This document shows, in pieces, positions 32,872 through 51,935 of a stretch of DNA of 64,000 nt. This stretch comes from Mycolicibacter heraklionensis (GTDB lineage: Bacteria; Actinomycetota; Actinomycetes; Mycobacteriales; Mycobacteriaceae). The stretch lies in contig LZME01000062.1 in the NCBI GenBank assembly GCA_001673575.1, positions 61,217 through 125,216 on the forward strand, given 5' to 3'. Position 1 is the stretch's first letter, and each line of letters begins with the position of its first letter. A model generated the notes under the pieces. It did no database searches, was not told the DNA's origin, and saw only the letters and a program-made list of their open reading frames with translations. Made by a program: the position numbers and the translations under genes.

Positions 32872-33156
32872 TTGAGCAACTCCTCAAGATCCAATGTCGT
32901 GCCTGCGGAAACAACTGAGTGTGAGGAAGATCATATTTAATAAATAGCTGTGACACAAGGCTCAGATCCCAGTTACACGGCATCTGCGCCGAGCGTTTCG
33001 GCACCGATGCGGTCTTTTCGACCCCGACACTTTCTTGGGCTGTTCCCAGCAGGTTGCGGCCAACCCGGCTCGGCTCCGGCCGGCAGCGGTTATGTTGGGA
33101 ATCCGCACGGAGACCCGAGGCGGGGTCGGCCAGCAAACGACGGTCTAGGTGACGAC
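32872..33156. promoter_or_regulatory. Divergent upstream region of the GjpA-like and FAAL genes
   Basis: 285 bases between divergent starts. The part nearest the GjpA-like gene (32900-32950) is markedly A/T-rich (ATCATATTTAATAAATAGC) and is the likely promoter zone. A weak AGGTGA precedes the FAAL start. No gene or palindrome of note was seen. Confidence 0.4.
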
Positions 33157-34989
33157 ATGCCACAGGACAGCCCAGCCACCGCGCGCACCCTGGTGGAACT
33201 GCTGCGTCAGCAGGCCGATCGCTACCGGGACAAGGTCGCGTTCGTGTTCGCCCCGGATGGTCTGGAGGAACAGAGTCGGCTGACCTACGCCGAGCTCGAC
33301 CGCAGCGCGCGGGCGATCGCGGCGGGTCTGCAACAACAGGGAGCGGCGGGACGTCGTGTGCTTGTCGTCTGCCGGCCGGGTCTCGACAGTGTCGCGGCCT
33401 ACTTCGGCTGCCTGTATGCCGGGGCGGTTGCCGTGCCCGTGCAGGATCGGCTCGGCAGGTTGACGCTGATCGCCCCCGATGCGCGAGCCGGTTTCGCCCT
33501 GGCGGACTCCGCCACGCAGGACACGCTCAGGGCCAGGGTCGACGGTTTGACCAAACGGCCGCTGCGATGGCTGGCCCCAGACGACCCCGGCGCAGACCCG
33601 GAGAGCTGGACGCCGCCCGACATCGGCGCCGACACCACAGCGATGCTGCAGTACACCTCGGGCTCCACCAGGGCACCCAAGGGTGTCGTCCTGACGCACG
33701 GCAACCTACTTGCCAACCTGGTCGCAATCCATGAGGCGTGGGGCGGCGACGACCAGAAGGTCGCAGTCTGCTGGCTACCCCAGCACCACGACATGGGCTT
33801 GATCGGCGGCATCCTGCAAAGCGTGTACGTCGGCGGCAACACGGTGCTGATGTCGCCGGCCGGCTTCATCACCCGCCCGATGCGCTGGCTGGAGGCCATG
33901 TCCCGGTACCGCGCCAACATCGCCACCGCACCGAATTTCGCCTACCAGCTCTGCGTCGAGCGCAGCACCGCCGAAGAGCGCGCGGCACTGGATCTGTCGC
34001 AGTGGTCGGCCGCGATGAACGGCGCCGAACCGGTTCAAGCCGGCACCCTGCGCGCCTTCGCCGAGGCTTTCGCGCCCGCCGGTTTCCGGCCAGAGGCGTT
34101 CCTACCGGTGTACGGATTGGCCGAAGCCACCCTGCTGGTCTCGGGCGGATCGGACGCCGCCGCACCGGTAATCCGCTGCATCGACCGCAACGCGCTCGGC
34201 GAAGATCGGGTCGTCGAGATCACCGACGCCGCCGCCGATGATCCCGGCGTCGTGGAGTTGGTCGGGTGCGGCCGACCCCGCGGCGATCAGCAGATCGTGA
34301 TCGCCGACCCGGAGACGCGCCGGCGCCGAGACGCCGAGCAGGTTGGCGAGATCTGGGTCTCCGGTCCGTGCGTCGCGCAGGGCTACCGCGGCAAACCAGA
34401 GGACACCGAGCAGACGTTCGGCGCCTACCTGGCCGACACCGGCGAAGGGCCCTTCCTGCGCACCGGCGATCTGGGCTTCTTGCGAGACGGCGAGGTGTTC
34501 ATCGCCGGGCGCTGCAAGGACCTGATCATTCTCCGCGGCAACAACTACTACCCCAACGACATCGAAAAGACGGTGCAGGGCAGCCATCCCGCGCTGCTGT
34601 CCGGCCGCGGCGCGGCCTTTTCGGTGACGCCGAAACCCGGCGCCGGCGAACAGCTCGTGGTGGTGCAAGAGATCGGAGCCTCCGGTGACGCTGCGGCCTT
34701 CACCCATGTACTGAAGGCGATCAACGCGGCGATCGCCCGCTACCACGGCATCGGGGCCCACGCCGTGGTCCTGGTGGAGCCAGGCACGATCCCGACCACG
34801 TCCAGCGGCAAGATCCAACGACAGGCCGCCCGCCAGAAGTTCCTCGACAGAGGGTTCACCGCACTGGCCCAATGGCGCGCCGCGCAGGGCTCCGGCAACC
34901 GCCACGGTGAGCCCCTGGCGGCGGCCCAGACCGCCGCGGCGGCGCAGCGAGCGGTGGCGCTGCAGTACTGGAAGGCACGGCAGGGCTGA
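33157..34989 (+). CDS. Fatty acyl-AMP ligase (FAAL/FadD family)
   Basis: 610 residues from the ATG at 33157. An adenylate-forming enzyme that activates a fatty acid as acyl-AMP, usually handing it to a polyketide synthase or carrier protein. ATP loop YTSGSTRAPKG, then WLPQHHDMGLIGGIL, the YGLAEATLLVSGG region, RTGDLGFLRDGEVFIAGR, and the C-terminal lysine in TTSSGKIQRQ. The HHDMGLIG and ILRGNNYYPNDIE texts are those of FAALs rather than CoA ligases. No PKS or acyl-carrier gene is nearby. It is closely related to the gene at 51936. It is followed 39 bases later by a hydrolase-fold gene, probably one operon. Confidence 0.9.
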   Translation: MPQDSPATARTLVELLRQQADRYRDKVAFVFAPDGLEEQSRLTYAELDRSARAIAAGLQQQGAAGRRVLVVCRPGLDSVAAYFGCLYAGAVAVPVQDRLGRLTLIAPDARAGFALADSATQDTLRARVDGLTKRPLRWLAPDDPGADPESWTPPDIGADTTAMLQYTSGSTRAPKGVVLTHGNLLANLVAIHEAWGGDDQKVAVCWLPQHHDMGLIGGILQSVYVGGNTVLMSPAGFITRPMRWLEAMSRYRANIATAPNFAYQLCVERSTAEERAALDLSQWSAAMNGAEPVQAGTLRAFAEAFAPAGFRPEAFLPVYGLAEATLLVSGGSDAAAPVIRCIDRNALGEDRVVEITDAAADDPGVVELVGCGRPRGDQQIVIADPETRRRRDAEQVGEIWVSGPCVAQGYRGKPEDTEQTFGAYLADTGEGPFLRTGDLGFLRDGEVFIAGRCKDLIILRGNNYYPNDIEKTVQGSHPALLSGRGAAFSVTPKPGAGEQLVVVQEIGASGDAAAFTHVLKAINAAIARYHGIGAHAVVLVEPGTIPTTSSGKIQRQAARQKFLDRGFTALAQWRAAQGSGNRHGEPLAAAQTAAAAQRAVALQYWKARQG

Positions 34990-35868: not shown

Positions 35869-35877
35869 TTCTACATA

Positions 35878-35921
35878 CGGCAGCGGCCGCCGAGTCCTTT
35901 CGGACCCGACGGCCGCTGCCG
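35878..35921. terminator. Bidirectional terminator between hydrolase and PGRS genes
   Basis: CGGCAGCGGCCG and CGGCCGCTGCCG form a perfect 12-bp stem; GTCC/GGAC pairs within the loop region extend it. It lies nine bases after the hydrolase stop and 14 bases before the stop of the opposite PGRS gene. Confidence 0.85.
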
Positions 35922-35935
35922 TTGTTATGGGACGT

Positions 35936-38900
35936 TTACCCGCCCGCACCTGCGGTGCCCGAGGCGCCGACCGTGCCGGCTGTCCCGGGCGGCGTGCCAG
36001 CACCGGCCGCGCCGCCTGCGCCACCCTTGCCGAGCGCCCCGCCGGCGCCAGGCGTTCCCGTGCTCGCGCCACCGGTGCCGCCGTCGCCGCCGTGGCCACC
36101 GTCGGCGCCGTTGCCGCCACCGGCACCATCGGTTCCGGCACCACCGGCCCCGCCGACACCGCCGGCCCCACCAAGACCACCCTTGCCGCCGGCAACACCA
36201 CCGGTGCCGGCTCCACCGGTACCGCCGTTGCCACCGGTTCCGGCCGCGCCACCGTTACCACCGGTGTTACCCGCACCGCTGGCAGCGCCACCGGCCCCGC
36301 CGGTGCCACCGACGCCGCCGGCTCCACCGGTGCCGCTGGCACCGGTCGAACCATTGGTGCCCGAGGTGCTCGCGCCGCCCAGCCCGCCGGACCCGGCAGT
36401 ACCGCCGTTGCCACCGGCACCACCGGTGCCGCCGTCGAAGCCGGCACCGTTGTTCGTGCCGCCGGCCCCGCCGGCACCACCCTTACCGCCGGCACCACCG
36501 GTGCCGCCGGCGCCACCTGCGCCACCGTTGCCGGTGCCCGAGGTACCACCGTTGCCGCCGGCGCCGGCCGCGCCGCCGTTACCACCAGCGGTGCCGTTGC
36601 CGCCGGCAGCGGTCGTGCCGGCATCGCCGGCCGTCCCTGCGACCCCGGCCCCACCGGTACCACCCCGGCCGCCCGTGCCGCCGTTGCCGTCCAGTGCGCC
36701 GGCACCAGCGTTGCCCGCAGTTCCGCTGGTGCTGGCACCGCCGCTGCCGGCAGTCCCGGCCGCTCCGCCTGCCCCGCCGTCACCGCCGATGCCGCCTGCC
36801 AGACCGTTGCCGTCGCTGTCCACGCCACCGGTCCCACCGGCACCACCGGTACCGCCGTTGCCGCCCTTGCCCGCGGCACCGCCGTTGCCACCATTACCGG
36901 TGTTCGAGGTACCGCCGTTGCCGCCGGTGCCACCGACGCCGCCGGCGGAACCGTTCCCACCGTTGCCACCGGCCGTGCCGGCGACGGTGTCGGTCGCGGT
37001 CGCGCCGGTCGCACCGGTGCTGCCCGTGCTACCCGTGCCGCCGGTGCCACCAGCACCACCGTTACCACCCTTACCGGCATCCGCCGTGCCACCGTTGCCA
37101 CCGGCACCACCCGCGGCGCCCGTACCACCGGTGCCACCATTACCGCCGTTGCCGCCGTTGGCCGCGAGGGCGCCGTTGCCGCCGGCACCACCGGCGCCGC
37201 CGACCCCGTTGGCACCGCCTGCGCCGCCGTTACCGCCGTTACCGGCATGGCTGGGCGCGACACCGATGTTGTTGGTCGGCACTGCAGTTCCGGCGCTGTT
37301 GCCGCCCTTACCGCCCGCTCCGCCGGCCGAATCGGCGCCACCGGCGGCGCCATTGCCGCCATTGCCGCCGCTGGCGGTGCCGTTGCCACCGTTACCACCC
37401 GCGCCGCCGACACCGACGGCACTGCTACCGCCGTTGCCGCCGTTGCCGCCGATGCTCACCCCGGTGGCCGCACCGTTGCCGCCGGCGCCGCCGTCGCCGC
37501 CGGTGGCGCCGGTACCGGCCGTGGAGGACGGACCGGATCCGCCGTTACCGCCGTTACCGCCGACGCTGTAGACGGTGCCCGCGGTGAAGTGGTCGCCGTT
37601 GACGTCGCGCCAGCCGGTGCCGGAGCCACCGGCACCGCCGTCACCGCCGTTGCCGGCGGTTCCCGCGCCCGCCAGGCCGGTACCGCCACCGGCACCGCCG
37701 TTACCGCCTTGAGCGTGGTTGCCGGAGAGCAGGCCGCCGCCGGCGCCGACGGTGCCATTACCGCCGGCGCCACCGTTACCACCGGTGCCGCCGACGCCGG
37801 AACCGGGCGCGCCGCCGGTGCCGCCGTTACCGCCGTTGCCGCCGAAGGTCTGGACGGTGTCGTCATCGGTGGCGCCGTTACCGCCCGCGCCACCGTTGCC
37901 GCCTGCCCCCGCGGGCGCGCTGGCGGCGGCACCGCCGGCACCGCCATTGCCGCCGTTGCCCGCCACGCCTTGGACGTTGGCGGCACCGCTGGCGTCGCCA
38001 CCGCGGCCGCCGTCACCACCGGCAGCGCCCACGTTGAATCCGGTCGAGGCACCAGCGGCGCCACCGACACCACCGTTGCCACCGTTGGTGACGCCGGCGC
38101 CGCCGGCGCCACCCGTGCCACCGGTACCCCCGGTGCCGTCACCGGCGTTCGCGCCGGCGCCGCCCGCGCCGCCGTTGCCGCCCTTGAGACCGTCACCGCC
38201 GATACCGCCGGCAGCACCGTTGCCCGCGACACCGCCGCTGGTGCTGCTCAGCGGGTCACCGCTGCCACCGCCCGCACCACCGGCGCCACCGTTACCGCCG
38301 TTGCCGAGGAAGTTGCCGTTCGCGTCCTTGAAGCCGTCACCACCGTTGCCGGCCGCGCCTCCAGCGGCTCCGATACCGGCGTGGCCCTTCTCCCAAAAGT
38401 TGCTACCGGCCGCGCCACCGGCGCCACCGGCGCCGCCGTTGCCACCGTTGACGTGGTCGGCCGTGCCGGCAGCGCCGTTACCGCCGGCACCGGCCTTGCC
38501 GCCGTCGCCGCCGTTGCCGAGGTTGAAGGCGCCGCGTCCGCCGGCACCACCGTTACCACCCGCGGTGCCGTTTCCGTTGCCGCCATTGGCGAAGCTGCCG
38601 GCCACGCCGTCACCACCGGCGCCGCCGGTACCACCGTTGCCGAAGAACCAGGCCACGGAGGCGCCACCATCGCCACCATCACCACCGATACCGCCGGCAC
38701 CGCCGACGCCACCGTGACCCAGGCCCCATGCGCTCGCGCCACCGTCGCCACCGGCCGCGCCGAAGCCGCCGGCGCCGCCGTCGCCGCCGTTGCCCAGCCA
38801 GCCGAGCGCGGCACCGCCGTTGCCGCCGGCCACACCGGCCTGGTCGCTGCTCCAGCCGGCACCGCCGTCGCCGAACCACAGCCCGCCGTCACCGCCATCC

Positions 38901-39310
38901 GGGTTGACCTCGGTGCCGTCGGCACCATTACCGATCAGGAATTGCCCGGACATTTCGTTGATGGCGTTGTTGACCATCGCGCCGAAGTCGCTGTCGATCC
39001 AGGCGGTCATACCCATGTGCAGTGGGGTGTAGAACCACTGGTCGAGGATGGTGATCATGTCGAAGGCGGCGGGATCGAAAGCCGCCAGTCCGGGGTCGAC
39101 ATCGGTGGTGACGTCGGCCGGGGTGAGCCAACTGAAGTCGAACAGGTCCTCGAAGCCGTCGGCCTGGGCCGCCGGCGCGCCGGCCAGCGGGGCCATGCCG
39201 AAGGCCAAGAACGCTGCCACCGCGCTGCCGGCGCCGACCGCCCGGCTGCCGCGCCGCGCTCCGGCCTGAACTTCTGAACCCGGCTGGCTACCGGTGTGAC
39301 GACGAGTCAT
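35936..39310 (-). CDS. Large glycine-rich PGRS protein with signal peptide instead of PE domain (module 1)
   Basis: 1124 residues. Residues 1-51 form a long, Arg-rich export signal (RRGSRAVGAGSAVAAFLAFG, cleavage after APAAQA). A unique stretch of about 80 residues follows (DLFDFSWLTPAD, LDQWFYTPLHMGM, INEMSGQFLIGNGADG). The remaining ~950 residues are GGxGG repeats with Asn, Ala, Asp and Thr, the PGRS type that forms parallel glycine sandwiches. SGQFLIGNGADGT resembles the GRPLIGNG linker of PE_PGRS proteins, but no PE domain exists. Interspersed modules such as DANGNFLGNGG and [10 protein letters not shown] recur in the other copies. It is downstream (66 bases) of the GjpA-like gene at 39377, with AGGAG before the ATG. 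A cell-envelope surface role is inferred. Confidence 0.86.
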   Translation of the reverse strand: MTRRHTGSQPGSEVQAGARRGSRAVGAGSAVAAFLAFGMAPLAGAPAAQADGFEDLFDFSWLTPADVTTDVDPGLAAFDPAAFDMITILDQWFYTPLHMGMTAWIDSDFGAMVNNAINEMSGQFLIGNGADGTEVNPDGGDGGLWFGDGGAGWSSDQAGVAGGNGGAALGWLGNGGDGGAGGFGAAGGDGGASAWGLGHGGVGGAGGIGGDGGDGGASVAWFFGNGGTGGAGGDGVAGSFANGGNGNGTAGGNGGAGGRGAFNLGNGGDGGKAGAGGNGAAGTADHVNGGNGGAGGAGGAAGSNFWEKGHAGIGAAGGAAGNGGDGFKDANGNFLGNGGNGGAGGAGGGSGDPLSSTSGGVAGNGAAGGIGGDGLKGGNGGAGGAGANAGDGTGGTGGTGGAGGAGVTNGGNGGVGGAAGASTGFNVGAAGGDGGRGGDASGAANVQGVAGNGGNGGAGGAAASAPAGAGGNGGAGGNGATDDDTVQTFGGNGGNGGTGGAPGSGVGGTGGNGGAGGNGTVGAGGGLLSGNHAQGGNGGAGGGTGLAGAGTAGNGGDGGAGGSGTGWRDVNGDHFTAGTVYSVGGNGGNGGSGPSSTAGTGATGGDGGAGGNGAATGVSIGGNGGNGGSSAVGVGGAGGNGGNGTASGGNGGNGAAGGADSAGGAGGKGGNSAGTAVPTNNIGVAPSHAGNGGNGGAGGANGVGGAGGAGGNGALAANGGNGGNGGTGGTGAAGGAGGNGGTADAGKGGNGGAGGTGGTGSTGSTGATGATATDTVAGTAGGNGGNGSAGGVGGTGGNGGTSNTGNGGNGGAAGKGGNGGTGGAGGTGGVDSDGNGLAGGIGGDGGAGGAAGTAGSGGASTSGTAGNAGAGALDGNGGTGGRGGTGGAGVAGTAGDAGTTAAGGNGTAGGNGGAAGAGGNGGTSGTGNGGAGGAGGTGGAGGKGGAGGAGGTNNGAGFDGGTGGAGGNGGTAGSGGLGGASTSGTNGSTGASGTGGAGGVGGTGGAGGAASGAGNTGGNGGAAGTGGNGGTGGAGTGGVAGGKGGLGGAGGVGGAGGAGTDGAGGGNGADGGHGGDGGTGGASTGTPGAGGALGKGGAGGAAGAGTPPGTAGTVGASGTAGAGG

Positions 39311-39376
39311 TGCGAATACCTCTCCTGATGAAAAGTTCGGCTAGTAGTGAAAGTTGGTGGGAGGACGAGCGACGGA

Positions 39377-40564
39377 TCAGCCGACCAGGCCGAGGTCGGA
39401 GAACAAGTCGCCGAAGCTGAAGCTGTCCGCCATCGCGCTGCCCGCACCGCCGTCGTCGACGCCGTCGTCGACGACGAAGCCCTCGGGTGCCGGGATGCTG
39501 AAGATGGGGTCCTTGCCGCTCCACGAGCCCCAGCCGAGCTGCGAGCCGATGACCTGCGACAGCCCCAGCAAGGCACCGAGGGGGCCGATCGCGTCGCTTG
39601 GCGCGTCGATGGTGGGCGACAGCGCGACACCGGTGTTGAGGTTGAAGCCAATGCTGTTGAAGATGGAGCCGCCGGATGCCGGCGCCGTGGCGATCTCATT
39701 TCCGTCGGCGTCCAGGATGTGCATGGGGCCGGCCGTGACGTGACCGCCGGTGCTGAACCATCCGCCGAAGGCGAAGTCCAGGTGCGTCAGCTCCATGGGC
39801 TCCGGGAGGACACCGGCGCCGTTGATCGCCGGCAGCAGGCCGTCCAGGTTGAGGGTGGCGCCGTTGAGCGAGGCGTCGAACATGTTCGCCGGGATGTTGA
39901 TCAGGCCCTGCAGTGCCCCTGACGTGTCACCGTCACGCAGCGCCTCGGAGATGTCCTCCCAGCTGTTGCCCAACGCGACCCAGGGCGCGATCCAGGGGCT
40001 CACCGAGGCGAGCATGAGCGCGCTCATCGGCGAGCCCAGGAAGTTGATGATCGGGGTGAGCGTCGCGGCCTGATCCTCCGGCAGGAAGCCCGGGACCTGG
40101 TTGAAGATGATTTCGTGGCCACCGCTGAGGTTGCCGATTGTGTAGCTGCTGTCCATCGTGTGGCGGATGACGTCGTTGATGGTGGCCTGGTCGGCATTCA
40201 TCAACGTGATGGCCGACCACGCGTTCTTGAGGTCCGTCTGGATCGCGCTGACCATCGCCGGGATGGTCGACGGGTCGTCGATCATGCTCTGGATGTAGCC
40301 CTCGACGTTATTCGTGAACTGGGTGAACCCGATGTTGGGCGCCGCGTTGTAGGAGGCCATCATCTGCGCGATGTTGTCCTGAGCGGTGTTGTACGCCGCG
40401 ACATACGGGGCGGTCAGGTCGGAGAAGCTGAAGTCAGCGGTCAACGCGAAGTCACGGGCAATGACCATGTGGTTCGCCGGCATCACACCGGGGGTGGCGG
40501 CGATCAGGCTTGCGCCCACTATCGCGACACCGGCGGTGGCGTAGGGGCGAAGGGCTTGCTGCAT
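39377..40564 (-). CDS. LRPY-TAG secreted protein, GjpA-porin-like (module 1)
   Basis: 395 residues from the ATG at 40564 (AGGAG six bases upstream). N-terminal export sequence LRPYATAGVAIVGASLIAATP. Central motifs shared with the other copies: INIPANMFDASLNGATLNLD, LTHLDFAFGGWFSTGGH, and GGSIFNSIGF. The C-terminus ends in VDDGVDDGGAGSAMADSFSFGDLFSDLG, alternating acidic and hydrophobic. It is directly upstream of the module-1 PGRS gene on the same strand. The pairing, repeated three times in this window, suggests that the two proteins act together, for example in surface display, but this is inference. Pore formation is not shown by sequence. Confidence 0.8.
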   Translation of the reverse strand: MQQALRPYATAGVAIVGASLIAATPGVMPANHMVIARDFALTADFSFSDLTAPYVAAYNTAQDNIAQMMASYNAAPNIGFTQFTNNVEGYIQSMIDDPSTIPAMVSAIQTDLKNAWSAITLMNADQATINDVIRHTMDSSYTIGNLSGGHEIIFNQVPGFLPEDQAATLTPIINFLGSPMSALMLASVSPWIAPWVALGNSWEDISEALRDGDTSGALQGLINIPANMFDASLNGATLNLDGLLPAINGAGVLPEPMELTHLDFAFGGWFSTGGHVTAGPMHILDADGNEIATAPASGGSIFNSIGFNLNTGVALSPTIDAPSDAIGPLGALLGLSQVIGSQLGWGSWSGKDPIFSIPAPEGFVVDDGVDDGGAGSAMADSFSFGDLFSDLGLVG

Positions 40565-40926
40565 CAATTTTCTCCTCACAACGTGTCGCCGCACCCTGAG
40601 GCGCAGGTAGGACCAGAGGCAACATAGCTAATATTTAACTTAGAGACAACCGGGAACGTGAAGTGCCTCAAAAGCGGCAAAGAATGTGATCCCCACCTCG
40701 AATCGGCCGGCCTAAACCCCCATTGACCTGCAGTTAACGGTCACGCTAAGGCTAGACTCCCGCACTCCAAACCTCCGGACGCTTCGTTCACGTAAGTGGA
40801 CTTATCCGACATGCTGTGAACTGCCTTAGGAATGGTGATTAGCGTCAGCAAGCGTCCCGGACCGGGGTGAATCCGCATGGCTGATAACTTGCGCCCGCTT
40901 CGCAGCGCGGTTTCGTTTGTGGATCT
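40565..40926 (-). promoter_or_regulatory. Upstream region of module 1
   Basis: 362 bases with no gene. AAGTTAAATATTAGC near 40625-40645 (minus-strand reading) is the most A/T-rich part and a probable promoter. Unlike modules 2 and 3 it lacks the conserved leader block. A short minus-strand ORF around 40741-40977 has no coding character. Confidence 0.35.
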
Positions 40927-41120
40927 GTGGTTCAGACAGGTGCGCTGAACGCCCGTCGAGTGGACTCGCGAGGTCATATCTGGCTCTAAGGCCGTTCAAG
41001 TCGCGCGGGGACCCCCACGCCCACCCGAATCGAAGTCGGAAACGACACCAAAACGACAACGGTCGCCGAGCCCGCGAGGGACTCGGCGACCGTGGTCGCG
41101 TTCAGGTGTCGGCTAGGTGC
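40927..41120. repeat. ~190-bp direct repeat, copy 1 (3' flank of module 2)
   Basis: Nearly identical, with only a handful of single-base differences, to 45531-45722. It starts GTGGTTCAGACAGGTGCGCT, covers the region downstream of a PGRS gene and ends at the PGRS stop codon itself. It contains the terminator hairpin. The two copies are 4604 bases apart, which gives the period of the tandem duplication. Confidence 0.92.
41056..41096 (-). terminator. Terminator of PGRS module 2
   Basis: A stem of 15 bp with one mismatch (ACAACGGTCGCCGAG / CTCGGCGACCGTGGT) encloses an 11-base loop, about 17 bases past the PGRS stop. It is the degenerate copy of the perfect hairpin at 45661-45701. Confidence 0.82.
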
Positions 41121-43899
41121 CGGCCTTTCCGCCCGCACCGGCGTTGCCGGCGCTGCCCGCGGTGCCATCGTGACCCGGCGTGCCGGTGCCGGTCGGAACA
41201 CCGCCCGGGCCGGCGGCACCCGCCGCCCCGCCGTTGCCGCCGGCACCCGCCGCGCCGCCGGTGCCGTTGCCCGCTCCGCCGGTGCCATGACCGCCGCCGT
41301 TGCCACCGGTACCGCCGTTGCCGCCATTGCCACCGTTGCCGCCGTTGTAGCCGTTGCCGGTGTCGGGGTTGGTGCCGCCGGCACCACCGGCGCCGCCGTC
41401 ACCACCATTACCGCCGCCGCCACCGGCGCCACCGTTGCCGCCGGTTCCGGTGGTGGAGGCGCCGCCGACGCCGCCGTTGCCGCCCGTACCGCCGACCCCG
41501 CCGTTGCCACCGTTGCCGCCCGCCGAGGGGGCGACGCTGGGCAGGAACGGGATGCCGCTGAGGCCGGCCGCCCCCTGGTCGGTATTGCCGCCGGCGCCAC
41601 CGGCGCCGCCGGTACCACCGTTGCCGGCCGCCGCGGTGCCACCGGCACCACCATCACCCCCATTGCCCGAGGTGCCGCCGCCACCACCGGCGCCACCCGC
41701 GCCACCGGTCCCGCCGTCGACCGAACCGCTTGCCGCGCCACCGGTGCCACCCGTACCGCCGTTGCCGCCCGCGAGACCGCCGTAGGAGTGACCGCCGTCC
41801 CCACCGGCGCCGCCGGTGCCGGCGTGGCTGGCGCCGAAGCCGTCAGGTGCGTCGCCCGGAGTGCTGACACCGGCGCTGTTGCCGCCGGCGCCACCGTTAC
41901 CGCCGTTGCCCCCGGGGCTCTTGGTGGACAGACCCGAGTAGCCGTCGCCACCACGTCCGCCCTGGCCGCCGTTACCGCCCGACGCAGTCCCGTTGGCGCC
42001 GGCGCCGCCGTTGCCGCCCGCCCCGGAGGCACCGCCGCTGCTGGTGCCGCCCCCGCCGCCGGCGCCGCCGTTACCGCCCATGCTGACCACGTTCGCGCCG
42101 GTCGCACCGGCAGCGCCGTCCGCACCGGTGCCACCGTTGCCCGCGGTACCGGTGCTGCCGCTACTGCCGCCGGTGCCGCCGTCACCGCCCCAGCCGCCGA
42201 TGCTGTAGGTAGTGCTGCCGTCCTTCCAGCCCAAGCCCTTGCCCGCGGCGCCGCCGTTGCCGCCGGCGCCGCCGTTCGCGGTCTGGCTGTAGCCGCCGCT
42301 GCCGCCGCCACCGCCGTTGCCGCCGCGCAGCGTCCCGTCGCCACCGGCGCCGCCGTTGCCGCCGGCGCCGCTGGTGCCGCTGTCGCTGTTGCCGCCCTGA
42401 CCGCCGTAGCCGCCCTGACCGCCATTGGTGGCAACGGTGGCGTCGCCGGTGGCGCCGTTGCCGGCCGCCCCGCCGGTGCCGCCGGCGCCGCCGGTGCCGC
42501 TGTCGCTGCTGCCGCCCTGGCCGCCGGCGCCGCCCTGGCCGCCGTAGCCGCCGGCCGCGGTGGCCAGGCCGCCCTTGCCGCCGTCACCGCCGAGGCCACC
42601 GGTGTTGGCGCCCAGCGAGTTACCGCCCTGGCCGCCGCCGCCGCCGTTGCCGCCGGAATTCCACGGGAAGGTCTCGCCGCTGGTGTTGACGCCGGTGCCG
42701 TCGCCACCGTCGCCGCCGGTGCCGCCGTTGCCGCCGTGCTCACCGCTGCCGCCGGCGCCGCCGTATCCGCCGAAACCACCCATGCCGATGTAGTCGCCGC
42801 CGGCATCCTTGGCCGCGTCGCCGCCGACGCCGCCGTTGCCGCCGTTGGCGCCGTCGCCCGCCGCCCCGGCGCTGCCGTAGAACGAGCCGGCGTAGTAGCC
42901 CGAGGCGCGGGCGCCGCCAGCGCCACCGTTGCCGCCCTGGCCGCCCTGTCCACCGGTCGCGCCATTGTTGTTGGCAGCGGTGATGCCGTTGCCGCCGTTG
43001 CCGGCTGCCCCACCGGCGCCGCCCTTGCCGCCGTCGCCGAACATGAAGCCACTGCGGCCGCCGGCGCCGCCGTTGCCGCCGGCCCCGCCCGCCATGCCGT
43101 TACCGATGCCGGAGTTGGCGAGGGTGCCTACGGCGCCGTTCATTCCGGCCCCGCCGGTACCACCGGCACCACCGTTGCCGAAGAACCAGGCTGCCGCCGC
43201 GCCACCGTCACCACCGGCGCCGCCGGACCCGCCGGCGACGGTTGCCGCACCGCCGGCGCCACCGTTGCCGCCGTTGCCCATCCACCAACCGCCGGCGCCG
43301 CCGTCACCGCCGGCCGCTCCCGCACCGCCCGCGCCGCCGTCACCACCGTTGCCCAGCCAGCCGAGCGCGTCACCGCCGTTGCCGCCGGCCACACCGGCCT
43401 GGTCGCTGCTCCAGCCGGCACCGCCGTCACCGATCCACAGCCCGCCGTCACCGCCGTCAGGGTGGTCTTCGGTACCGGCAACACCATTGCCGATCAGGTA
43501 CAGGCCGGACCAGTCGTTGATCATCCCGTTGATCGACTCGCCGAACGGACTGGTGATCCAGAGCTGAGTGAGGTTGTGCAGCGGCTCGTAGAACCACTGG
43601 TCCATGATCCCGGTCCACGAGAACGGGTCACCCGCCGCGGCGCCGGGGTCTGCTGCACCGAACAGCGCACTCAGGTCCCAGCTGGCTGCTGTGTCGCCGG
43701 TGTCACCCGCGGGCCACCAGCTGAACAGGTCACCGACGAGGTCACCGAAGTCGCTGTCGGCGTGTGCGGCTGGCGCCGCGGCCATCGGGGCCATTCCGAA
43801 AGCCAGGAACGCGCCGACCGTACTCGCGGCGCCGACCATCCGCCTGCGGTATCGCATTCCGGTGTTGTCGGGCTGGCTGCTGCTGTGACGACGATTCAT
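41113..43899 (-). CDS. Large glycine-rich PGRS protein with signal peptide (module 2)
   Basis: 928 residues. Export signal [20 protein letters not shown], cleaved after APAAHA; unique domain with WSWPAGDT-type acidic/Trp text ([13 protein letters not shown] region), [17 protein letters not shown] and [20 protein letters not shown]; then PGRS repeats from about residue 140. Internal modules: [30 protein letters not shown], and the late [14 protein letters not shown]. It ends in Gly/Thr-rich text ([15 protein letters not shown]). The N-terminal 140 residues align with modules 1 and 3 and with the gene at 61735. It is downstream (84 bases) of its GjpA-like partner at 43984. The repeats have AA/NGG codons consistent with the host. 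Confidence 0.86.
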
Positions 43900-43983
43900 T
43901 TGCGAACACCTCTCCTGTGCAGCGGTTCTTTGAAGCAGTGATGAAGGTTGTTGGTGGGAATGCCGTTACCAGCGGACGCCGGC

Positions 43984-45156
43984 TCAGACGTCGAAGCCGA
44001 GAAGCCCGGCCAGGTCACCCAGCACGTCGGATGCCGCGCCGGATCCGGCGCCGCCGTCGTCGAAGAAGTCGTCGGGCACGATCGGAAAGCTGATTCCCGG
44101 CCACGGCGGGGTGACCTCGACGGGGCCCTTGCCCGTCCAGCCGGAGCCGAGCAGCGCACCGACGGTCTGCCCCCACGCCTCCATGGCCGCAATCGGGCCG
44201 ATGCCGTGACCTTCGATCGCGATGGGCACTCCGGGAAGCAGGCCGGCCGTCAGGGTGATGCCCAAGCTGTTGAAGATCGAGCCGCCTACTGCGGGAACCT
44301 CGACGAGATTGCCCGCGGCGTCGTGTACTTGGTAGGGGCCTACCGCCACATCGCCCGGGGTCAGCAAGCCGCCGAACGCGAACTCCAGATGGGTGATATC
44401 GGTGCCCTCGGGGAGCAGGCCGGTGCTGGCGATCAGCGGCAGCAGGCTGTCGAGGTTGAGGGTCGCGCCGTTGAGGTAGCCGTCGAGCCAGCTGGCCATG
44501 ATCTGATTGAAACCGTCGCCGTCCTGGATGCTGTTCATCATCGCGACCCAGGGGGCGATGGACGGGCTCAGCGATCCGATGATGATGGCGCTCAGCGGCG
44601 AGGCCAGGAAGTCCACGATCGGCGTCGCGAACGAGGCCATGTCCGCCGGCAGGAATGTCGGCAGCAGCGCGAACAGCAGGTCGTGGCCGAAAGCGTAGGT
44701 GTTGATGTCGGTCCCGCTGAGGGTGTGCAGCCCCACCGTGCCGAGGGTGCCGGTGAACCCGTCGAGACCGAAGCTGCCGTCAGCGTTCTGCAGCGTGTAA
44801 CCGGTCAGCACCGCGTCCAGGTTGGCCTGCATCTGCTGCATCACGGCCGGGATCTTCGACGGATCGTTGAGGACTTCCTGCCAGAACTGCGACTGGTTCG
44901 CCAGGAATTGCTGGAATGCCACCCCGGGGGCCAGGAAGAAGTTCTGGGTGAGGACGGTGGCGTTCTGCGAGGCCTCATTGAACACCGCTGTCCACGGCGC
45001 CAACAGATCGGGAAGGCCGCCGCCCGCGGCCAGCGCGACGTCTCGGATGGTGGGACCGTCGGCCAACGGAGTCGCTACTACCGGGGTGGCGGCGATCAGG
45101 CCGGAGCCCACGATCGCGATACCGGCAGTGACGTAGGGGCGAAGGGTTTGCTGCAC
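43984..45156 (-). CDS. LRPY-TAG secreted protein, GjpA-porin-like (module 2)
   Basis: 390 residues. The GTG at 45156 is preferred over the ATG at 45162 because AAGGAG then lies six bases upstream; the ATG would touch the ribosome site. It gives QQTLRPYVTAGIAIVGSGLIAATP, matching module 1. Motifs: WLDGYLNGATLNLDSLLP, ITHLEFAFGGLLTPGDVA, GGSIFNSLGITL and the C-terminal FFDDGGAGSGAASDVLGD. DPSKIPAVMQQMQANL resembles DPSTIPAMVSAIQTDL of module 1. It is upstream of the module-2 PGRS gene, with a leader block shared with module 3. Confidence 0.8.
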   Translation of the reverse strand: MQQTLRPYVTAGIAIVGSGLIAATPVVATPLADGPTIRDVALAAGGGLPDLLAPWTAVFNEASQNATVLTQNFFLAPGVAFQQFLANQSQFWQEVLNDPSKIPAVMQQMQANLDAVLTGYTLQNADGSFGLDGFTGTLGTVGLHTLSGTDINTYAFGHDLLFALLPTFLPADMASFATPIVDFLASPLSAIIIGSLSPSIAPWVAMMNSIQDGDGFNQIMASWLDGYLNGATLNLDSLLPLIASTGLLPEGTDITHLEFAFGGLLTPGDVAVGPYQVHDAAGNLVEVPAVGGSIFNSLGITLTAGLLPGVPIAIEGHGIGPIAAMEAWGQTVGALLGSGWTGKGPVEVTPPWPGISFPIVPDDFFDDGGAGSGAASDVLGDLAGLLGFDV

Positions 45157-45486
45157 AGCCATCTCCTTTTGTGAGGTTCCGCCCTCGGCAGGCCCCGCGC
45201 GGAGCTGTGGCGCTGCCGTGTTGCTCCTGAATTCACACCTATTCACTGATGTGATACCGAACATTAACCGTGGGTAACTTAAGATACAAGTGCCTCGGTC
45301 AGATATCTTTCGAGTGTTTTCAAAGTTCACAAGCGTTAACTTGTTGATACCTCGTGATCCGCCATATTTTCTACCTGAGAGTGGACAGTCGTCGTGTTCC
45401 GGGCACGGCACGTATCTACAACAGAACTGGAGTGAGTGAGGTACGCGAATACGTGGTAGGCCCCGCAGTGCCGGGGCTGCCGCGGG
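45157..45486 (-). promoter_or_regulatory. Conserved leader/promoter block of module 2
   Basis: Bases 45151-45411 align base-for-base with 50361-50620 upstream of module 3 over about 260 bases, with scattered substitutions. The best-kept parts are TTGTGAGG, GAGCAAC-type text near the start codon, and TTAAGTTAC (minus strand) about 110 bases from the start. Conservation this far beyond the ribosome site suggests a long 5' leader or several control sites, or a recent duplication. Confidence 0.6.
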
Positions 45487-45530
45487 GGCCCGCCACTGGT
45501 GCTGGCACCGCCGTTTCCGTCGTTACCGGT
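45487..45530 (-). pseudogene. Remnant of a PGRS coding sequence
   Basis: Read on the minus strand, this reads GNDGNGGASTSGG, typical PGRS text, with no start, no stop and no flanking reading frame. It lies exactly at the join between the repeated 3' flank and the module-2 leader, as expected of debris left by unequal crossing-over. Confidence 0.55.
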
Positions 45531-45722
45531 GTGGTTCAGACAGGTGCGCTGAACGCCCGTCGAGTGGACTCGGCGAGGTCATATCTGGCTCTAAGGCCGT
45601 TCAAGTCGCGCGGGGACCCCCACGCCCACGCGAATCGAAGTCGAAAACGACACCAAAACGACCACGGTCGCCGAGCCCGCGAGGGACTCGGCGACCGTGG
45701 TCGCGTTCAGGTGTCGGCTAGG
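45531..45722. repeat. ~190-bp direct repeat, copy 2 (3' flank of module 3)
   Basis: The second copy of the 40927-41120 repeat. The sequence GTGGTTCAGACAGGTGCGCT to GGTGTCGGCTAGG is shared, ending at the TAG stop of the module-3 PGRS gene. One extra G and a few substitutions separate the copies. Confidence 0.92.
45661..45701 (-). terminator. Terminator of PGRS module 3
   Basis: Perfect 15-bp stem ACCACGGTCGCCGAG / CTCGGCGACCGTGGT with an 11-base loop, beginning about 17 bases after the PGRS stop. Confidence 0.88.
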
Positions 45723-48700
45723 CGCCGGGCGCCCCGTTGGTGCCCGGGGTACCAGGGGCGCCGTTGCCGGCACCGCCGGTTCCGGTGCCGCCGGCACCGG
45801 CCGCCCCACCAGCCCCGCCGGGACCACCCGGCGTGCCACCCTTGCCGCCATTCGCGCCATCGCCACCGTCACCGCCGGTGTTGCCGGCGCCCTGAGCGGT
45901 ACCGCCCTTACCGCCGGCCCCGCCATGGCCGCCGGATCCGCCGGCCCGGTCAGCACCATCGCTACCGGCCGTGGCGCCGCCGCCACCCGCCCCGCCGACG
46001 CCGCCCTGACCGCCGGTACCGCCGACCCCGCCGTTGCCGCCGTCGAAGCCGTCGCCGGTGGCATTGGTGCCACCGGTGCCACCGTTGCCGCCGGCACCGC
46101 CCGCGCCGGCAAGGCCGCCGGCGCCACCGGCGCCACCGCTACCACCGACCGAGGTGCCACCGGCACCGCCCTTGCCGCCGTTGCCTCCATCACCGGCCGC
46201 ACTGCCGTTGCCACCGGCTGCGTTCGAGTGGTTAGCGCCCGCCGCGCCGGCACCGCCGACCCCGCCGTTACCGCCGGCACCACCGGCACCGCCGTCGCCA
46301 TCGCCACCGACCGTGCCCGCAGGGCCGCTGGTGCTGGTACCGGCCGCACCGCCGATGCCGGCCTTACCGCCGATCCCGCCGTTGCCGCCGTTACCGCCGT
46401 CCAGGCCCTGGCCACCGGCCCCACCGTTACCGCCGGCACCGCCGGCCCCGCCGGTGCCGCCGACTCCGCCGCTGCCGGCGGCACCAGTGCCCGAGGTACC
46501 GCCGGCCCCGCCGTTGCCGGCACTGCCACCGTTACCGCCGTTGGTGCCGTTGCCCCCGGCCGCGCTCGCCGAGCTGGCGCCATCGGTGCCGGCAGATCCG
46601 GCCCCGCCGTTACCGCCGGCACCACCGGTGCCGCCGCTACCGTCGAGCCCCTCGGTTCCCGCGGCACCAGCGGTCCCGCTGGTACTGGCGCCACCCGCAC
46701 CGGCCGCGCCACCGTCCCCACCGGCACCGCCCTTACCGCCGTTACCGCCGGCCAGGCCGTTGCCATTGGCGTCGGTGCCACCGTTACCGCCGGCCCCACC
46801 GGCTCCACCGGTGCCGCCGACTCCGCCGTTACCGCCCTTGCCACCGTCACCGGTGGTCGCGGTACCGCCGGCACCGCCCTTGCCTCCTGCGTTTCCGGCC
46901 GAGCCGTCACCGCCGTTACCCCCGGCCGCGCCGGCCAGCGCGGTGCCGGCCGCACCGGCCGCGCCGGCCGTGCCGGCACCGCCGTTACCGCCATTACCGC
47001 CATCGGCCGTGCCGGTAGCGGCGCCGCCGTTACCGCCCTGGCCGCCACCGACACCACCGTCGCCGCCGTTACCGGCGTGGCCCGTACCAGCCGCGATGCC
47101 GAGTGGGTTGCCGACCGCCGCCACCGCGCTGCCGCTGCTCGCACCGCCGTTACCGCCGGCCCCAGCCGTACCGCCCGGAGCACCGGCAGCGCCACCGGCA
47201 CCACCGTTCCCGCCGATGACCGTGCCGCTGCCGCCGGCACCACCATTAGCGCCGTTACCGCCATTCGTCGTGCCGCCGGTGAGGCCGGCACCGCCGGCAC
47301 CCCCGGCACCGCCGGCACCGCCATTGCCACCCACGCTGACGCCGGTGGTCGCGCCGGCGCCGCCGGCACCGCCGACGCCGCCATTGCCGCCGCCAGTGCC
47401 CAGGAGGCCGGACCCGCCGCCGCCATAGCCACCCGAGCCGCCGTTGCCGCCCCGGCTATAGACACCGACCCCGTTGTTCCAGCCGGTGGCGCTACCGCCG
47501 GCGCCTCCAGCACCGCCGTTGGCGCCTGAGTAGGCCCCGATACCACCGTTACCGCCGTTACCGCCGGCGAAGGTGCCGGTACCGCCGGAGCCACCGGCAC
47601 CACCGTTACCGCCGAGGCCCTTGGAGCCGAACCCGCCGCCACCGCCGGCTCCACCCGCTCCACCGGTGGTCTTGACGGTGGCATCGTTGGTGGCGCCGGC
47701 ACCGCCGGCACCGCCGTTACCGCCGGCCCCGGCCGCCCCAGTGCCGTTGCCGCTACCGCCGAAGCCGCCCTGACCGCCGGCCCCGCCGACGCCCGCAGCA
47801 AGTGCGGAACCAGTGGCGGCACCGCCGGCACCGCCATTGCCGCCGGCTCCCCCGGTGCCGGTCCCGAAGCCGCCACCGCCCGTGCCGCCGCCACCGCCAA
47901 TACCGCCGTTAATGCCGGCACCGCCGGCACCGCCGGCACCGCCGTCCGCTCCGGTGCCTTGCTTGGCGCCGTAGGTCAGGCCGCCGCCTTGACCGCCGGC
48001 ACCGCCAGCGCCGCCGTTGCCCAGGAACTTGCCCCCGCCGTCCTTGGCCGCGTCGCCGCCGGCGCCGCCGGCACCACCGGCCGAACTGGCGCCGAGCTGG
48101 CCGGCCCCGCCGAGGGGGCCGTTGAACTTCTCACCGCCGACACCGCCAGCGGCGCCTGCGCCACCGGCGCCACCGATACCGCCGTTGAGGTGGGTGGCGT
48201 CACCGGCAGCGCCCGCGCCGCCGTTACCGGCGGTGCCGGCCGCACCACCGTTGCCGCCGGCGCCGAAGGTGTAGCCACTGCGGCCGCCGTCACCGCCGAC
48301 GCCGGCGTTACCGCCCCCGGCACCATTGCCGCTGCCGCCGTTGGCGAAGGTGCCGGCCGCGCCGTTAGCGCCGTCACCGCCGGCACCTCCATTACCGCCC
48401 GAGCCGAAGAACCAGGCCACCGCGGCACCGCCGTCACCACCCGCGCCGCCAGCAAAGCCGGCAGTGATGGCGTCACCGCCGGCACCGCCGTTACCGCCGA
48501 GGCCCATGAACCAGCCACCCGCGCCGCCGTCACCGCCGGCCGCACCGGCGCCGCCGGCTCCACCGTCACCGCCGTTACCGATCCAGCCGAGGGCGCTGCC
48601 GCCGTTGCCGCCGGCAACACCGGCCGCGTCGCTGCTCCAGCCGGCGCCACCGTCGCCGAACCATAAGCCCCCGTCACCGCCATCGGGGTTTACCTCGGTG

Positions 48701-49104
48701 CCGTCGGCACCATTACCGATCAGGTACAGCCCGGAGATGTCGTTGATGGCACCGTTGACCAACTCGCCCAACGGGTTATTGATCCAGAACTCCATCACCA
48801 TGTGGAGCGGGTTGTAGAAGAAGTTGGTGAGCAGGTCCGTGCCGAAGTCGGCTGCGGGCATGGGTTCGAAGTTGAAGCTGAAGTCCGCCGGCGAAGCATC
48901 CGACTGGGGGAACAGGTCGGAGAGCCAGTCGAAGTTGAACAGATCATCGACGTCGGCCTGCGCCGGGGGCGCGGACGCCCACGGCGCCATGCCGAACGCC
49001 AAGAACGCGGCGACGGCGCTGCTGGCGCCGGCCACCCTGTTGCGGCGCCGCGCGCCACTTCCGGGCTGAGTGCCACGCTGGCTGCTGGTGTGACGACGAT
49101 TCAT
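45718..49104 (-). CDS. Large glycine-rich PGRS protein with signal peptide (module 3)
   Basis: 1128 residues. Export signal with Arg-rich start (ARRRNRVAGASSAVAAFLAFG) cleaved after APPAQA; acidic unique domain ([56 protein letters not shown]); PGRS repeats from about residue 140 to the end. Modules shared with the other copies: [36 protein letters not shown], and NATGDGFDGGNGG. It is nearly the same length as module 1 (1124). It is 85 bases downstream of its GjpA-like partner. As for the others, Sec- or Tat-type export is inferred; no ESX signal (YxxxD/E after a helical hairpin) is visible. Confidence 0.86.
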   Translation of the reverse strand: MNRRHTSSQRGTQPGSGARRRNRVAGASSAVAAFLAFGMAPWASAPPAQADVDDLFNFDWLSDLFPQSDASPADFSFNFEPMPAADFGTDLLTNFFYNPLHMVMEFWINNPLGELVNGAINDISGLYLIGNGADGTEVNPDGGDGGLWFGDGGAGWSSDAAGVAGGNGGSALGWIGNGGDGGAGGAGAAGGDGGAGGWFMGLGGNGGAGGDAITAGFAGGAGGDGGAAVAWFFGSGGNGGAGGDGANGAAGTFANGGSGNGAGGGNAGVGGDGGRSGYTFGAGGNGGAAGTAGNGGAGAAGDATHLNGGIGGAGGAGAAGGVGGEKFNGPLGGAGQLGASSAGGAGGAGGDAAKDGGGKFLGNGGAGGAGGQGGGLTYGAKQGTGADGGAGGAGGAGINGGIGGGGGTGGGGFGTGTGGAGGNGGAGGAATGSALAAGVGGAGGQGGFGGSGNGTGAAGAGGNGGAGGAGATNDATVKTTGGAGGAGGGGGFGSKGLGGNGGAGGSGGTGTFAGGNGGNGGIGAYSGANGGAGGAGGSATGWNNGVGVYSRGGNGGSGGYGGGGSGLLGTGGGNGGVGGAGGAGATTGVSVGGNGGAGGAGGAGGAGLTGGTTNGGNGANGGAGGSGTVIGGNGGAGGAAGAPGGTAGAGGNGGASSGSAVAAVGNPLGIAAGTGHAGNGGDGGVGGGQGGNGGAATGTADGGNGGNGGAGTAGAAGAAGTALAGAAGGNGGDGSAGNAGGKGGAGGTATTGDGGKGGNGGVGGTGGAGGAGGNGGTDANGNGLAGGNGGKGGAGGDGGAAGAGGASTSGTAGAAGTEGLDGSGGTGGAGGNGGAGSAGTDGASSASAAGGNGTNGGNGGSAGNGGAGGTSGTGAAGSGGVGGTGGAGGAGGNGGAGGQGLDGGNGGNGGIGGKAGIGGAAGTSTSGPAGTVGGDGDGGAGGAGGNGGVGGAGAAGANHSNAAGGNGSAAGDGGNGGKGGAGGTSVGGSGGAGGAGGLAGAGGAGGNGGTGGTNATGDGFDGGNGGVGGTGGQGGVGGAGGGGATAGSDGADRAGGSGGHGGAGGKGGTAQGAGNTGGDGGDGANGGKGGTPGGPGGAGGAAGAGGTGTGGAGNGAPGTPGTNGAPGA

Positions 49105-49189
49105 TTTCGAACACCTCTCGTGTGAACAGTCCTGTTGAGCGGTTGTGACTTCTCAGTTCGGGTCATGCGAAATGCGGGGCTGGACGGGT

Positions 49190-50365
49190 TTACAGACCCA
49201 GGGCGTCCAGGAGGCTCGCCCAATCGGCCGCATCCCCCACGCTCGAGCCGGCACCGCCGTCATCGAAGAAGTCAGAGGGGACGACGGGGAAAGAGAAGCC
49301 GGACAGCGGCGGCTCCACGGGCGGTTGGCCAGGGTTCTTGCCGTCCCAGTTCCAGGCGACCCCGCCCAGCAACCCGGTGATGGCCTGCTCCCAGCCCATC
49401 ATGGCGCCGATCGGGCCGACCCCGTGGCTTTCAACGGTGAGCGTGAGCGGTACGCCCAGAAAGCCCGACGCGTCGATAGCGAGGCCGACGCTGTTGAAGA
49501 TCGAACCGCCAACCGCGGGCACCTCGGAAACGATGTTTCCGGAGGCGTCATAGGTGGTGTACGCCGCGTTGGCCACCGAGCCGGGCGTAAGCAGGCCACC
49601 GAACGCGAAATCCAGGTGGGACAGGGTGCCCGGCGGCACCACACCGTCGAGCATCGGCAGGATGAAGTCGAGGTTGAGGGTGGCGCCGTTGAAGAAGGCG
49701 CCGGTCATGTTGGCCAGGATCTCGTTCAGACCGTCGCCGTCGTTGATGCTGTTCATCAGTGCGACCCAGGGGCTTATCCCCGGCCCGATCATGCCCATGA
49801 TCATGCCGCTCATCGGTGACGAGATGAAGTTGATGATCGCGTTTATCGGTTCGACGTCGGTACCGGCGGGCAAGAAGGCCGGCAACAGTTGGGGCAGGAG
49901 TCCGAACAGCAGGGAGTGGCCGAGGGTGAAGGTGGAGAGATCGGCGCCCCCGCTGAGGGTGTGCAGAATCGTGGTAGCGGCGGTCGGGTCGTCTGCGGCG
50001 ATGCCGAGCATGGTGTAGGCGTTGTTCACCGCGCGCAGATGCTCCTGCATCTCGTTGACCACGTCGGGGATCTTCGAGGGGTCGTTGAGGATCTCCTGGA
50101 AGTAGCCGTATTGGTTGGCGATGAACTGCTGGAACGCCACGAACGGCGCGAGGTTGAAGTTGTTGGCGAGCACCGTGGCGTTCTCGGCCGCGATGTTGTA
50201 CTGCTCGATCCACGGCGCCATCGCGTCGGTCAGGAGGCTGGTGAGTGCGACGTCGTGGGCCTTGGGTATGTCGGGCAACGACGCGACCGCCGGGGGGACG
50301 GTGATCAGGGTGGCGCCCACGATCGCGATACCCGCCGTGGCGTAGGGGCGAAGGGTTTTCTGCAC
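49190..50365 (-). CDS. LRPY-TAG secreted protein, GjpA-porin-like (module 3)
   Basis: 391 residues from a GTG at 50365, chosen for AAGGAG six bases upstream exactly as in module 2. Export sequence QKTLRPYATAGIAIVGATLI. Shared motifs: DPSKIPDVVNEMQEHL, MTGAFFNGATLNLDFILP, LSHLDFAFGGLLTPGSVA, GGSIFNSVGLAI and C-terminal FFDDGGAGSSVGDAADW. It is closer to module 2 than to module 1 (same spacing, same start signals, same leader). It precedes the module-3 PGRS gene. Confidence 0.8.
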   Translation of the reverse strand: MQKTLRPYATAGIAIVGATLITVPPAVASLPDIPKAHDVALTSLLTDAMAPWIEQYNIAAENATVLANNFNLAPFVAFQQFIANQYGYFQEILNDPSKIPDVVNEMQEHLRAVNNAYTMLGIAADDPTAATTILHTLSGGADLSTFTLGHSLLFGLLPQLLPAFLPAGTDVEPINAIINFISSPMSGMIMGMIGPGISPWVALMNSINDGDGLNEILANMTGAFFNGATLNLDFILPMLDGVVPPGTLSHLDFAFGGLLTPGSVANAAYTTYDASGNIVSEVPAVGGSIFNSVGLAIDASGFLGVPLTLTVESHGVGPIGAMMGWEQAITGLLGGVAWNWDGKNPGQPPVEPPLSGFSFPVVPSDFFDDGGAGSSVGDAADWASLLDALGL

Positions 50366-50835: not shown

Positions 50836-51879
50836 GTGCGGATCGGTGTACAGCTGGCCTATGCGGGTGGGTTCAAGGAAGCGGTCGAGCAGGTCGTCGC
50901 GCTGGAGCGAGTCGGGATCGACGTGGTCTCGGTCGCCGAGGCCTATTCGTTCGACGCCATCAGCCAGCTGGGCTACCTGGCGGCCAAGACGTCGCGAGTC
51001 GAGCTCCTCACCGGTGTTCTGCCGATCTACACCCGAACGCCCGCACTGCTGGCAATGACGGCCGCCGGCTTGGACTACGTCTCCGACGGCCGGTTCGCCC
51101 TGGGGCTGGGCACCTCGGGCCCGCAAGTGGTGGAGGGCTTCCACGGCGTGCCGTTCGACGCACCCCTGGGCCGTACTCGCGAGGTCGTGGAGATCTGCCG
51201 GGCGGTGTGGCGCCGCGAACGGCTCAACTACCACGGGAAGCACTACCAGTTGCCCCTACCGGCGGACCGCGGAACCGGACTGGGCAAGTCATTGCAGTTG
51301 ATCAATCACCCGGTGCGCGAGCGGATTCCGATCTCGATCGCCGCGTTGGGGCCCAAGAACGTCGAACTGACCGCCGAGATCGCCGACGGTTGGCAGCCGG
51401 TGTTCTTCTACCCGGAACGATCCAATGACGTGTGGGGCGAATCCCTGAAAGCCGGTGCGGCCAAACGTGATCCGGCGCTGGGACCGCTCGACGTCATCGT
51501 GGGGGCGTCGCTGGCCATCGGCGATGACGTCGAGGACCGGCTGGCATGGGTGAAACCGCAGCTGGCGCTCTACATCGGTGGAATGGGCGCCAAAGGTCGC
51601 AACTTCTATCACAACCTGGCCACCCGCTACGGCTTCGGCGATGTCGCCGATCGCATCCAGGAGCTTTACCTGTCCGGACGCAAGACCGAGGCGATCGACG
51701 CGGTGCCCGACGAGCTGGTGCGCAACACGTCGTTGGTCGGGCCGCGGGGCCTAGTGGCCCAACGGCTGGCCGCCTACGCCGAGGCCGGGGTGACCACGCT
51801 GCTGGTCGGTCCGCTGGCCACCCGGCCCGACGAAGCGCTGCGCTACGTCGAGGAGCTGCGCGCCCTGCTGGCGTCCTGA
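50836..51879 (+). CDS. LLM-class F420-dependent oxidoreductase
   Basis: 347 residues from a GTG at 50836. Luciferase-like TIM barrel: RIGVQLAYAGGFKEAVEQVV at the first strand, YISDGR-type YVSDGRFALGLGTSGPQVVEGFHG (cofactor phosphate loop), RTREVVEICRAVWRRE, and PISIAALGPKNVELTAEIADGW. These are marks of F420- rather than FMN-using mycobacterial enzymes. The substrate is unknown. It lies upstream of the second FAAL gene (56-base gap) on the same strand, so both may work on one lipid. Confidence 0.88.
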   Translation: MRIGVQLAYAGGFKEAVEQVVALERVGIDVVSVAEAYSFDAISQLGYLAAKTSRVELLTGVLPIYTRTPALLAMTAAGLDYVSDGRFALGLGTSGPQVVEGFHGVPFDAPLGRTREVVEICRAVWRRERLNYHGKHYQLPLPADRGTGLGKSLQLINHPVRERIPISIAALGPKNVELTAEIADGWQPVFFYPERSNDVWGESLKAGAAKRDPALGPLDVIVGASLAIGDDVEDRLAWVKPQLALYIGGMGAKGRNFYHNLATRYGFGDVADRIQELYLSGRKTEAIDAVPDELVRNTSLVGPRGLVAQRLAAYAEAGVTTLLVGPLATRPDEALRYVEELRALLAS

Positions 51880-51935
51880 CTCGGCGCGCGGGGGCCGGGT
51901 GTGGTCCAGAACACCCCACACGCCAAAATGGGCCC

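Follow-up and report, generated by a model that had tools for sequence, protein, structure and literature searches.

Signal-peptide PGRS genes paired with GjpA-family genes in Mycolicibacter: a putative two-gene envelope module

The closest described relatives of the genes considered here are the PE_PGRS proteins of slow-growing mycobacteria. In the published 'sail' model (PMC9436101), PGRS is seated on the outer leaflet of the mycomembrane. A 2025 review notes M. smegmatis PGRS proteins with doubtful N-termini (PMC11939664), and Table 1 in PMC12209268 gives a pe_pgrs count of 0 for Mycolicibacter terrae and engbaekii. How PGRS proteins cross the mycomembrane and become seated on it is a question usually approached via PE and ESX-5.

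The second relevant family is GjpA (NF033942, 'outer membrane porin GjpA'), whose name we take to derive from a Gordonia jacobaea protein. The genome note on G. jacobaea mentions the isolation of a pore-forming protein (PMC4559739).

The window, a 64-kb stretch of DNA from a 4.7-Mb draft genome, contains three pairs of a GjpA-like gene and a PGRS gene, which follow one another head to tail, all on the minus strand:

49190..50365, minus strand: GjpA-like protein of module 3, 391 aa, GTG start (NF033942, 434.8 bits)
49105..49189, minus strand: gap of module 3, 85 nt, with PGRS ribosome-binding site GAGAGG
45718..49104, minus strand: signal-peptide PGRS protein of module 3, 1128 aa (PF21526, 50.8 bits; no PE; N-terminal profile match)
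45658..45704, minus strand: hairpin and T run 3' of module 3, 20 pairs
43984..45156, minus strand: GjpA-like protein of module 2, 390 aa, GTG start (NF033942, 470.2 bits)
43900..43983, minus strand: gap of module 2, 84 nt, with AGGAGAGG
41113..43899, minus strand: signal-peptide PGRS protein of module 2, 928 aa (PF21526, 43.7 bits; no PE; N-terminal profile match)
41059..41093, minus strand: hairpin 3' of module 2, 15 pairs
39377..40564, minus strand: GjpA-like protein of module 1, 395 aa, ATG start (NF033942, 339.8 bits)
39311..39376, minus strand: gap of module 1, 66 nt, with AGGAGAGG
35936..39310, minus strand: signal-peptide PGRS protein of module 1, 1124 aa (PF21526, 46 bits; no PE; N-terminal profile match)
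35877..35922, minus strand: hairpin 3' of module 1, about 21 pairs, lacking a T run and adjoining the end of an ORF on the opposite strand

The first-pass annotation had described an array of three two-gene modules with recurring start signals and terminators, and the arrangement is confirmed: the stop of each GjpA-like gene (390-395 aa) lies 66, 84 or 85 nt ahead of the start of a PGRS gene (928-1128 aa), and every PGRS stop has a hairpin of 15 to about 21 pairs downstream of it. GGAG stands ahead of the GjpA genes, and GAGAGG lies 8-9 nt 5' of every PGRS ATG. The GjpA-like proteins begin shortly ahead of an LRPY motif; their starts are best placed at ATG 40564, GTG 45156 and GTG 50365. In modules 2 and 3, GGAG directly adjoins an ATG but sits 6 nt 5' of the GTG; this spacing and the alignment with the module 1 ATG are the reasons for choosing GTG. 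The end coordinate given by the first-pass annotation, 50365, coincides with the GTG of module 3. Two AMP-binding enzymes, possibly fatty-acyl-AMP ligases, are encoded on either side of the array (32950-34989 and 51546-53759).

All three GjpA-like proteins exceed the curated NF033942 cut-off of 100 bits, and the description of them as porin-like is a putative one taken from the family name. They have no Pfam match at E 0.1 and therefore no POTRA or TpsB domain; TpsB/POTRA and TPS domains are absent from all six module proteins in the same search (Pfam, E 0.1). Solved structural relatives were sought by sequence, with none at E <0.1.

The PGRS proteins are built of a signal peptide (judged by eye), a linker and then PF21526 repeats, all scoring above the gathering score of 27. 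A Pfam search found no PE domain (PF00934) in any of the three, in agreement with the earlier description of these genes as PE-less with a signal peptide. Their bodies are 47-50% glycine; the whole proteins contain no cysteine, and aromatic residues fall mostly within the first 600 residues.

The separation of PGRS from PE extends beyond the array. In the window's own genome, PGRS was located at 36 places and PE at 15 others, the PE frames being at most 298 aa long. Four complete genomes of relatives have 133 PGRS places and 50 PE places without overlap (by eye), with PE frames of at most 318 aa. In alignments judged by eye, the PGRS N-termini share a conserved Arg, a hydrophobic core and A-x-A-D; the signal peptide is probably of the Sec type, and Tat is also possible. 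Since no PGRS frame listed for these five genomes contains PE, they seem to export PGRS through a signal peptide instead. PE-less PGRS genes would escape a count of pe_pgrs genes, so the zeros in the PMC12209268 table agree with these findings; a large PGRS repertoire in Mycolicibacter seems to have been overlooked, to go by the two species tabulated there. A signal peptide replacing PE is a possible answer to the doubtful N-termini of M. smegmatis PGRS proteins described in PMC11939664.

Each module looks like a bicistronic unit, judging by the position of long stems (at least 12 pairs within 100 nt, G-T pairs and one mismatch allowed). Of 56 units, 44 have such a stem 3' of the PGRS stop, and none has one 3' of the GjpA stop; the background rate is 19 of 284 random 100-nt stretches of the named loci. 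Both genes would then be carried on a single transcript. The 12 units without a long stem include L088, whose frame is broken by N, and the units with a second PGRS gene (L034, L105 and again L088); these three have no long stem after the second PGRS gene either. A simple scan found no sigma-70-type promoter, and T-run hairpins in the region do not outnumber those in shuffles (7 vs 8.2). The sequences just 3' of the window's three PGRS genes nevertheless fold much more stably than shuffled sequence; for the module 1 hairpin the fold is -52.8 kcal/mol over 90 nt, against a shuffled mean of -28.2 (sd 3.7). One hairpin sequence common to all modules was considered and rejected. One exact pattern taken from the window's hairpin occurs in only 2 of 151 loci, both in this array; long stems therefore recur without a shared sequence.

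Pairing was surveyed with seven GjpA proteins of the window's own genome. A scan of named genomes gave 71 loci, from the best 80 of 125 matches; distant relatives are undersampled. Pairs were called with two profiles, one made from the seven proteins and the other, an iterated one, from the PGRS N-terminus. GjpA genes of at least 300 bits were treated as a strong class; this border was set after a gap in the scores had been seen and the profile comes from seven paired sequences, and the phylogenetic tree serves as the check. Among strong-class genes with at least 300 nt visible downstream (one further gene ends at a contig edge), 65 of 66 have a signal-peptide PGRS gene as their downstream neighbour, in the same orientation. 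These are all 7 genes of the own genome and, from the named loci, 58 of 59, the 58 coming from 16 named assemblies. This count excludes contig-end genes, fragments shorter than 300 residues and L107, in which GjpA is split over two frames. The gaps span 19-100 nt (median 66, n=65). The sole unpaired gene, L098:5576-6691 (349 bits), has a counterpart of equal length and score in genome G022 (L134). Relatives of 100-300 bits with visible flanks are paired in 0 of 4 cases in the own genome and in 1 of 15 in the named loci, the one being L107. The earlier description of an obligate pair thus stands for the paired GjpA clade, fails for the relatives outside it that were examined, which stand alone, and fails for PGRS, as detailed below.

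By GjpA gene, the nearest named relatives of the window's genome are species of Mycolicibacter (best 80 of 125 matches), an environmental group related to the tuberculosis bacterium. Among the matches listed, at least 14 of the 148 genomes of the database-defined genus have an NF033942 match at E 1e-60, and at least 15 of the 148 have a PGRS N-terminus match at 1e-10; eight of these carry 13-31 copies and seven carry 1-3, all lower bounds. In the wider family, NF033942 occurs in at least 3 of 31 genera among the matches listed. In the four complete genomes, coordinates compared by eye place a PGRS N-terminus after 17 of 23 GjpA matches among those listed (G016 4/5, G022 6/9, G069 7/8, G073 0/1); the six unpaired matches score 198-349 bits with the GjpA profile. 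G073 has at least 13 PGRS N-termini, and its only GjpA match (E 1e-60, among the matches listed) has no PGRS N-terminus within 9 kb. For six genomes the matches listed include GjpA and lack the PGRS N-terminus; none was found near their GjpA genes in stretches of up to 9 kb. The window itself contains an unpaired GjpA-family gene (31759-32871, 176 bits), which branches outside the paired clade and shares 93% identity with an M. heraklionensis gene.

In a tree of 92 GjpA proteins, the 65 paired ones form one clade (SH-aLRT 99) and pairing requires a single change; the tree is a quick search with no mixture model, in which long-branch joins are flagged. The 27 unpaired proteins lie outside, including the L098 exception and solo relatives of other mycobacteria. 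In the tree of PGRS N-termini the pairing label takes seven changes, and the 65 paired sequences fall in one part (support 87) together with seven apparently solo ones. One of these seven, L032, follows a contig-cut GjpA gene; three (L034, L088, L105) are the second PGRS genes of units.

The partners have also diversified together. Their distance matrices over 64 pairs correlate with a Mantel r of 0.768; the highest value among 2000 partner swaps within genomes is 0.323. Paired GjpA proteins differ by a median of 50% and fall into many subclades. The paired genes look as though they have been kept together since a single origin, and for this reason the proteins may well work jointly at the cell surface.

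The modules of the window are old, as shown by GjpA identities of only 42-56%: the GjpA proteins of modules 2 and 3 share 45% and 42% identity with that of module 1, and 56% with each other. Some of their DNA is recent. The stretches 3' of the second and third PGRS genes (40926-41112 and 45530-45717) are 97.9% identical over 188 columns, and both hairpins sit inside this shared 188-nt flank; the repetition of the hairpin there is therefore due to recent duplication or conversion between modules. The first-pass annotation had allowed that the array might be only a local duplication, the two families lying mostly apart elsewhere. For the array as a whole this is ruled out by the pairing in other genomes, at loci almost all from Mycolicibacter, by the single paired clade and by the co-diversification of the partners.

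Dependence within the pair is one-way: members of the paired GjpA clade come with a PGRS gene, while most PGRS genes examined in the own genome have no GjpA. The stretches examined there contain at least 35 signal-peptide PGRS N-termini, with further PGRS places outside them. Nine of the 35 have an LRPY/GjpA-type gene upstream; the other 26 have none, some of them at contig ends. Together with G073, this indicates that PGRS export as such is independent of a GjpA-like gene. The idea that every PGRS gene follows a partner of some family was rejected: in the own-genome stretches, by a crude gene filter, unpaired PGRS genes follow unrelated genes, opposite-strand genes, another PGRS gene or nothing caught.

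Other arrangements occur in the own genome. Contigs C38 and C69 carry tandem PGRS genes whose frames range from about 900 to 3800 residues, and no GjpA gene in the stretches examined. Contig C102 encodes two larger LRPY-type proteins (L045:4240-9292; frames of 770 and 829 aa, no Pfam match); 87 nt beyond the second gene, where the contig ends, a signal-peptide PGRS gene begins, which makes this LRPY-type protein a possible second type of PGRS partner. At the end of the window a fourth PGRS gene (61735-63999) is truncated by the contig end, with its start and any partner out of view; it adjoins a gene for a PE-PPE domain protein (PF08237; 59762-61204).

The GjpA tail also follows pairing. The last 45 residues include DDGG in 53 of 64 paired GjpA proteins and in none of 32 unpaired relatives. 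Judged by eye, the motif is similar to GDGGAG at the PGRS start. Docking through similarity between the tail and the partner's mature PGRS N-terminus was considered as support for contact and dropped, because the likeness is weak (mean z 0.92, with 43 of 64 exceeding the mean of shuffles).

Our preferred reading, held tentatively and at somewhat under an even chance, is that the transcription unit encodes a matched pair of exported envelope proteins in which the GjpA-like protein anchors, assembles or displays its own PGRS. The GjpA-family protein, usually DDGG-tailed unlike its unpaired relatives, would enter the outer layer of the envelope. PGRS, with PE replaced by a probable Sec signal peptide and a short conserved linker, would pass the inner membrane, and its glycine-repeat body would then fold into a flat sail lying on the mycomembrane. 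The GjpA-like protein, made just ahead of PGRS, would most likely anchor, assemble or display its own partner there, perhaps by direct contact. A functional pair is favoured because linkage persists despite about 50% protein difference and the stem lies mostly at the end of the unit only. Since most PGRS proteins of the same build examined in the own genome have no partner, the role would be a specialised one and not that of a general exporter. Against a matched pair, the two partners have matching nearest neighbours in other genomes in only 27 of 64 cases, and linked genes that are copied together likewise yield correlated trees. The first-pass interpretation as a whole is partly supported, the surface partnership being a putative part of it.

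A possible but rather doubtful alternative is that two surface proteins act separately, are needed together and share an operon for joint expression or dosage. The operon-like anatomy and the pairing require no contact, and units in which one PGRS gene is succeeded by another (L034, L105, L088) would suit this explanation. Partner-specific co-diversification and the DDGG tail are better accommodated by a matched pair, with the caveat that co-duplication could also correlate the trees.

It is improbable that the module is an analogue of two-partner secretion, with the GjpA-like protein serving as an outer-membrane pore for the passage of its own PGRS across the mycomembrane. The family is named for a porin, a small gene stands ahead of a giant exoprotein gene and module types retain their own partners; most same-build PGRS genes examined in the own genome nevertheless have no adjoining partner gene, so they would need another crossing route or a partner in trans. 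Least probable is a chance pair formed once, copied as a block and unbroken so far: the single paired clade, the near-identical 3' flanks of modules 2 and 3 and their 82% similar upstream DNA fit it, yet with a median GjpA difference of 50% and many subclades just 1 of 66 genes is unpaired, branching outside the paired clade, and recombination-prone repetitive genes should often have shed their partners.

Three known systems come closest to the module. Among the matches listed, the open-licence literature contained nothing on PE-less PGRS in Mycolicibacter or on a GjpA-PGRS operon, two reviews cited here being the nearest items; within that search, the operon of GjpA and signal-peptide PGRS is a variant not found in the literature. 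By analogy, it resembles Gram-negative two-partner secretion (TpsB/TpsA) in that an envelope-protein gene stands beside the gene of a giant repetitive exported protein, and differs from it in that many PGRS proteins have no partner gene. A mycobacterial counterpart, in which a GjpA-type protein carries or plants the PGRS sail of a PE-free PGRS lineage, has a low probability.

With GjpA it shares the family itself, as all three window proteins exceed the family cut-off. At four loci of two other genera, GjpA genes are single, with frames of 562-625 aa and Ser-rich ends, and have no PGRS N-terminus or Gly-rich frame within 8 kb around; paired GjpA proteins, by contrast, are about 390 aa long and usually end in a DDGG tail. 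The operon supplies a candidate partner for this little-characterised family.

As in PE_PGRS proteins, the PGRS domain (PF21526) starts at a LIGNG-like segment, which by our own reading resembles the GRPLI linker described in PMC9436101. Unlike PE_PGRS, the module PGRS proteins have a signal peptide and a conserved linker, with PE nowhere in the PGRS frames listed. With dozens of signal-peptide PGRS genes each, these genomes uncouple the PGRS sail from PE and make its crossing and seating on the mycomembrane a testable question.
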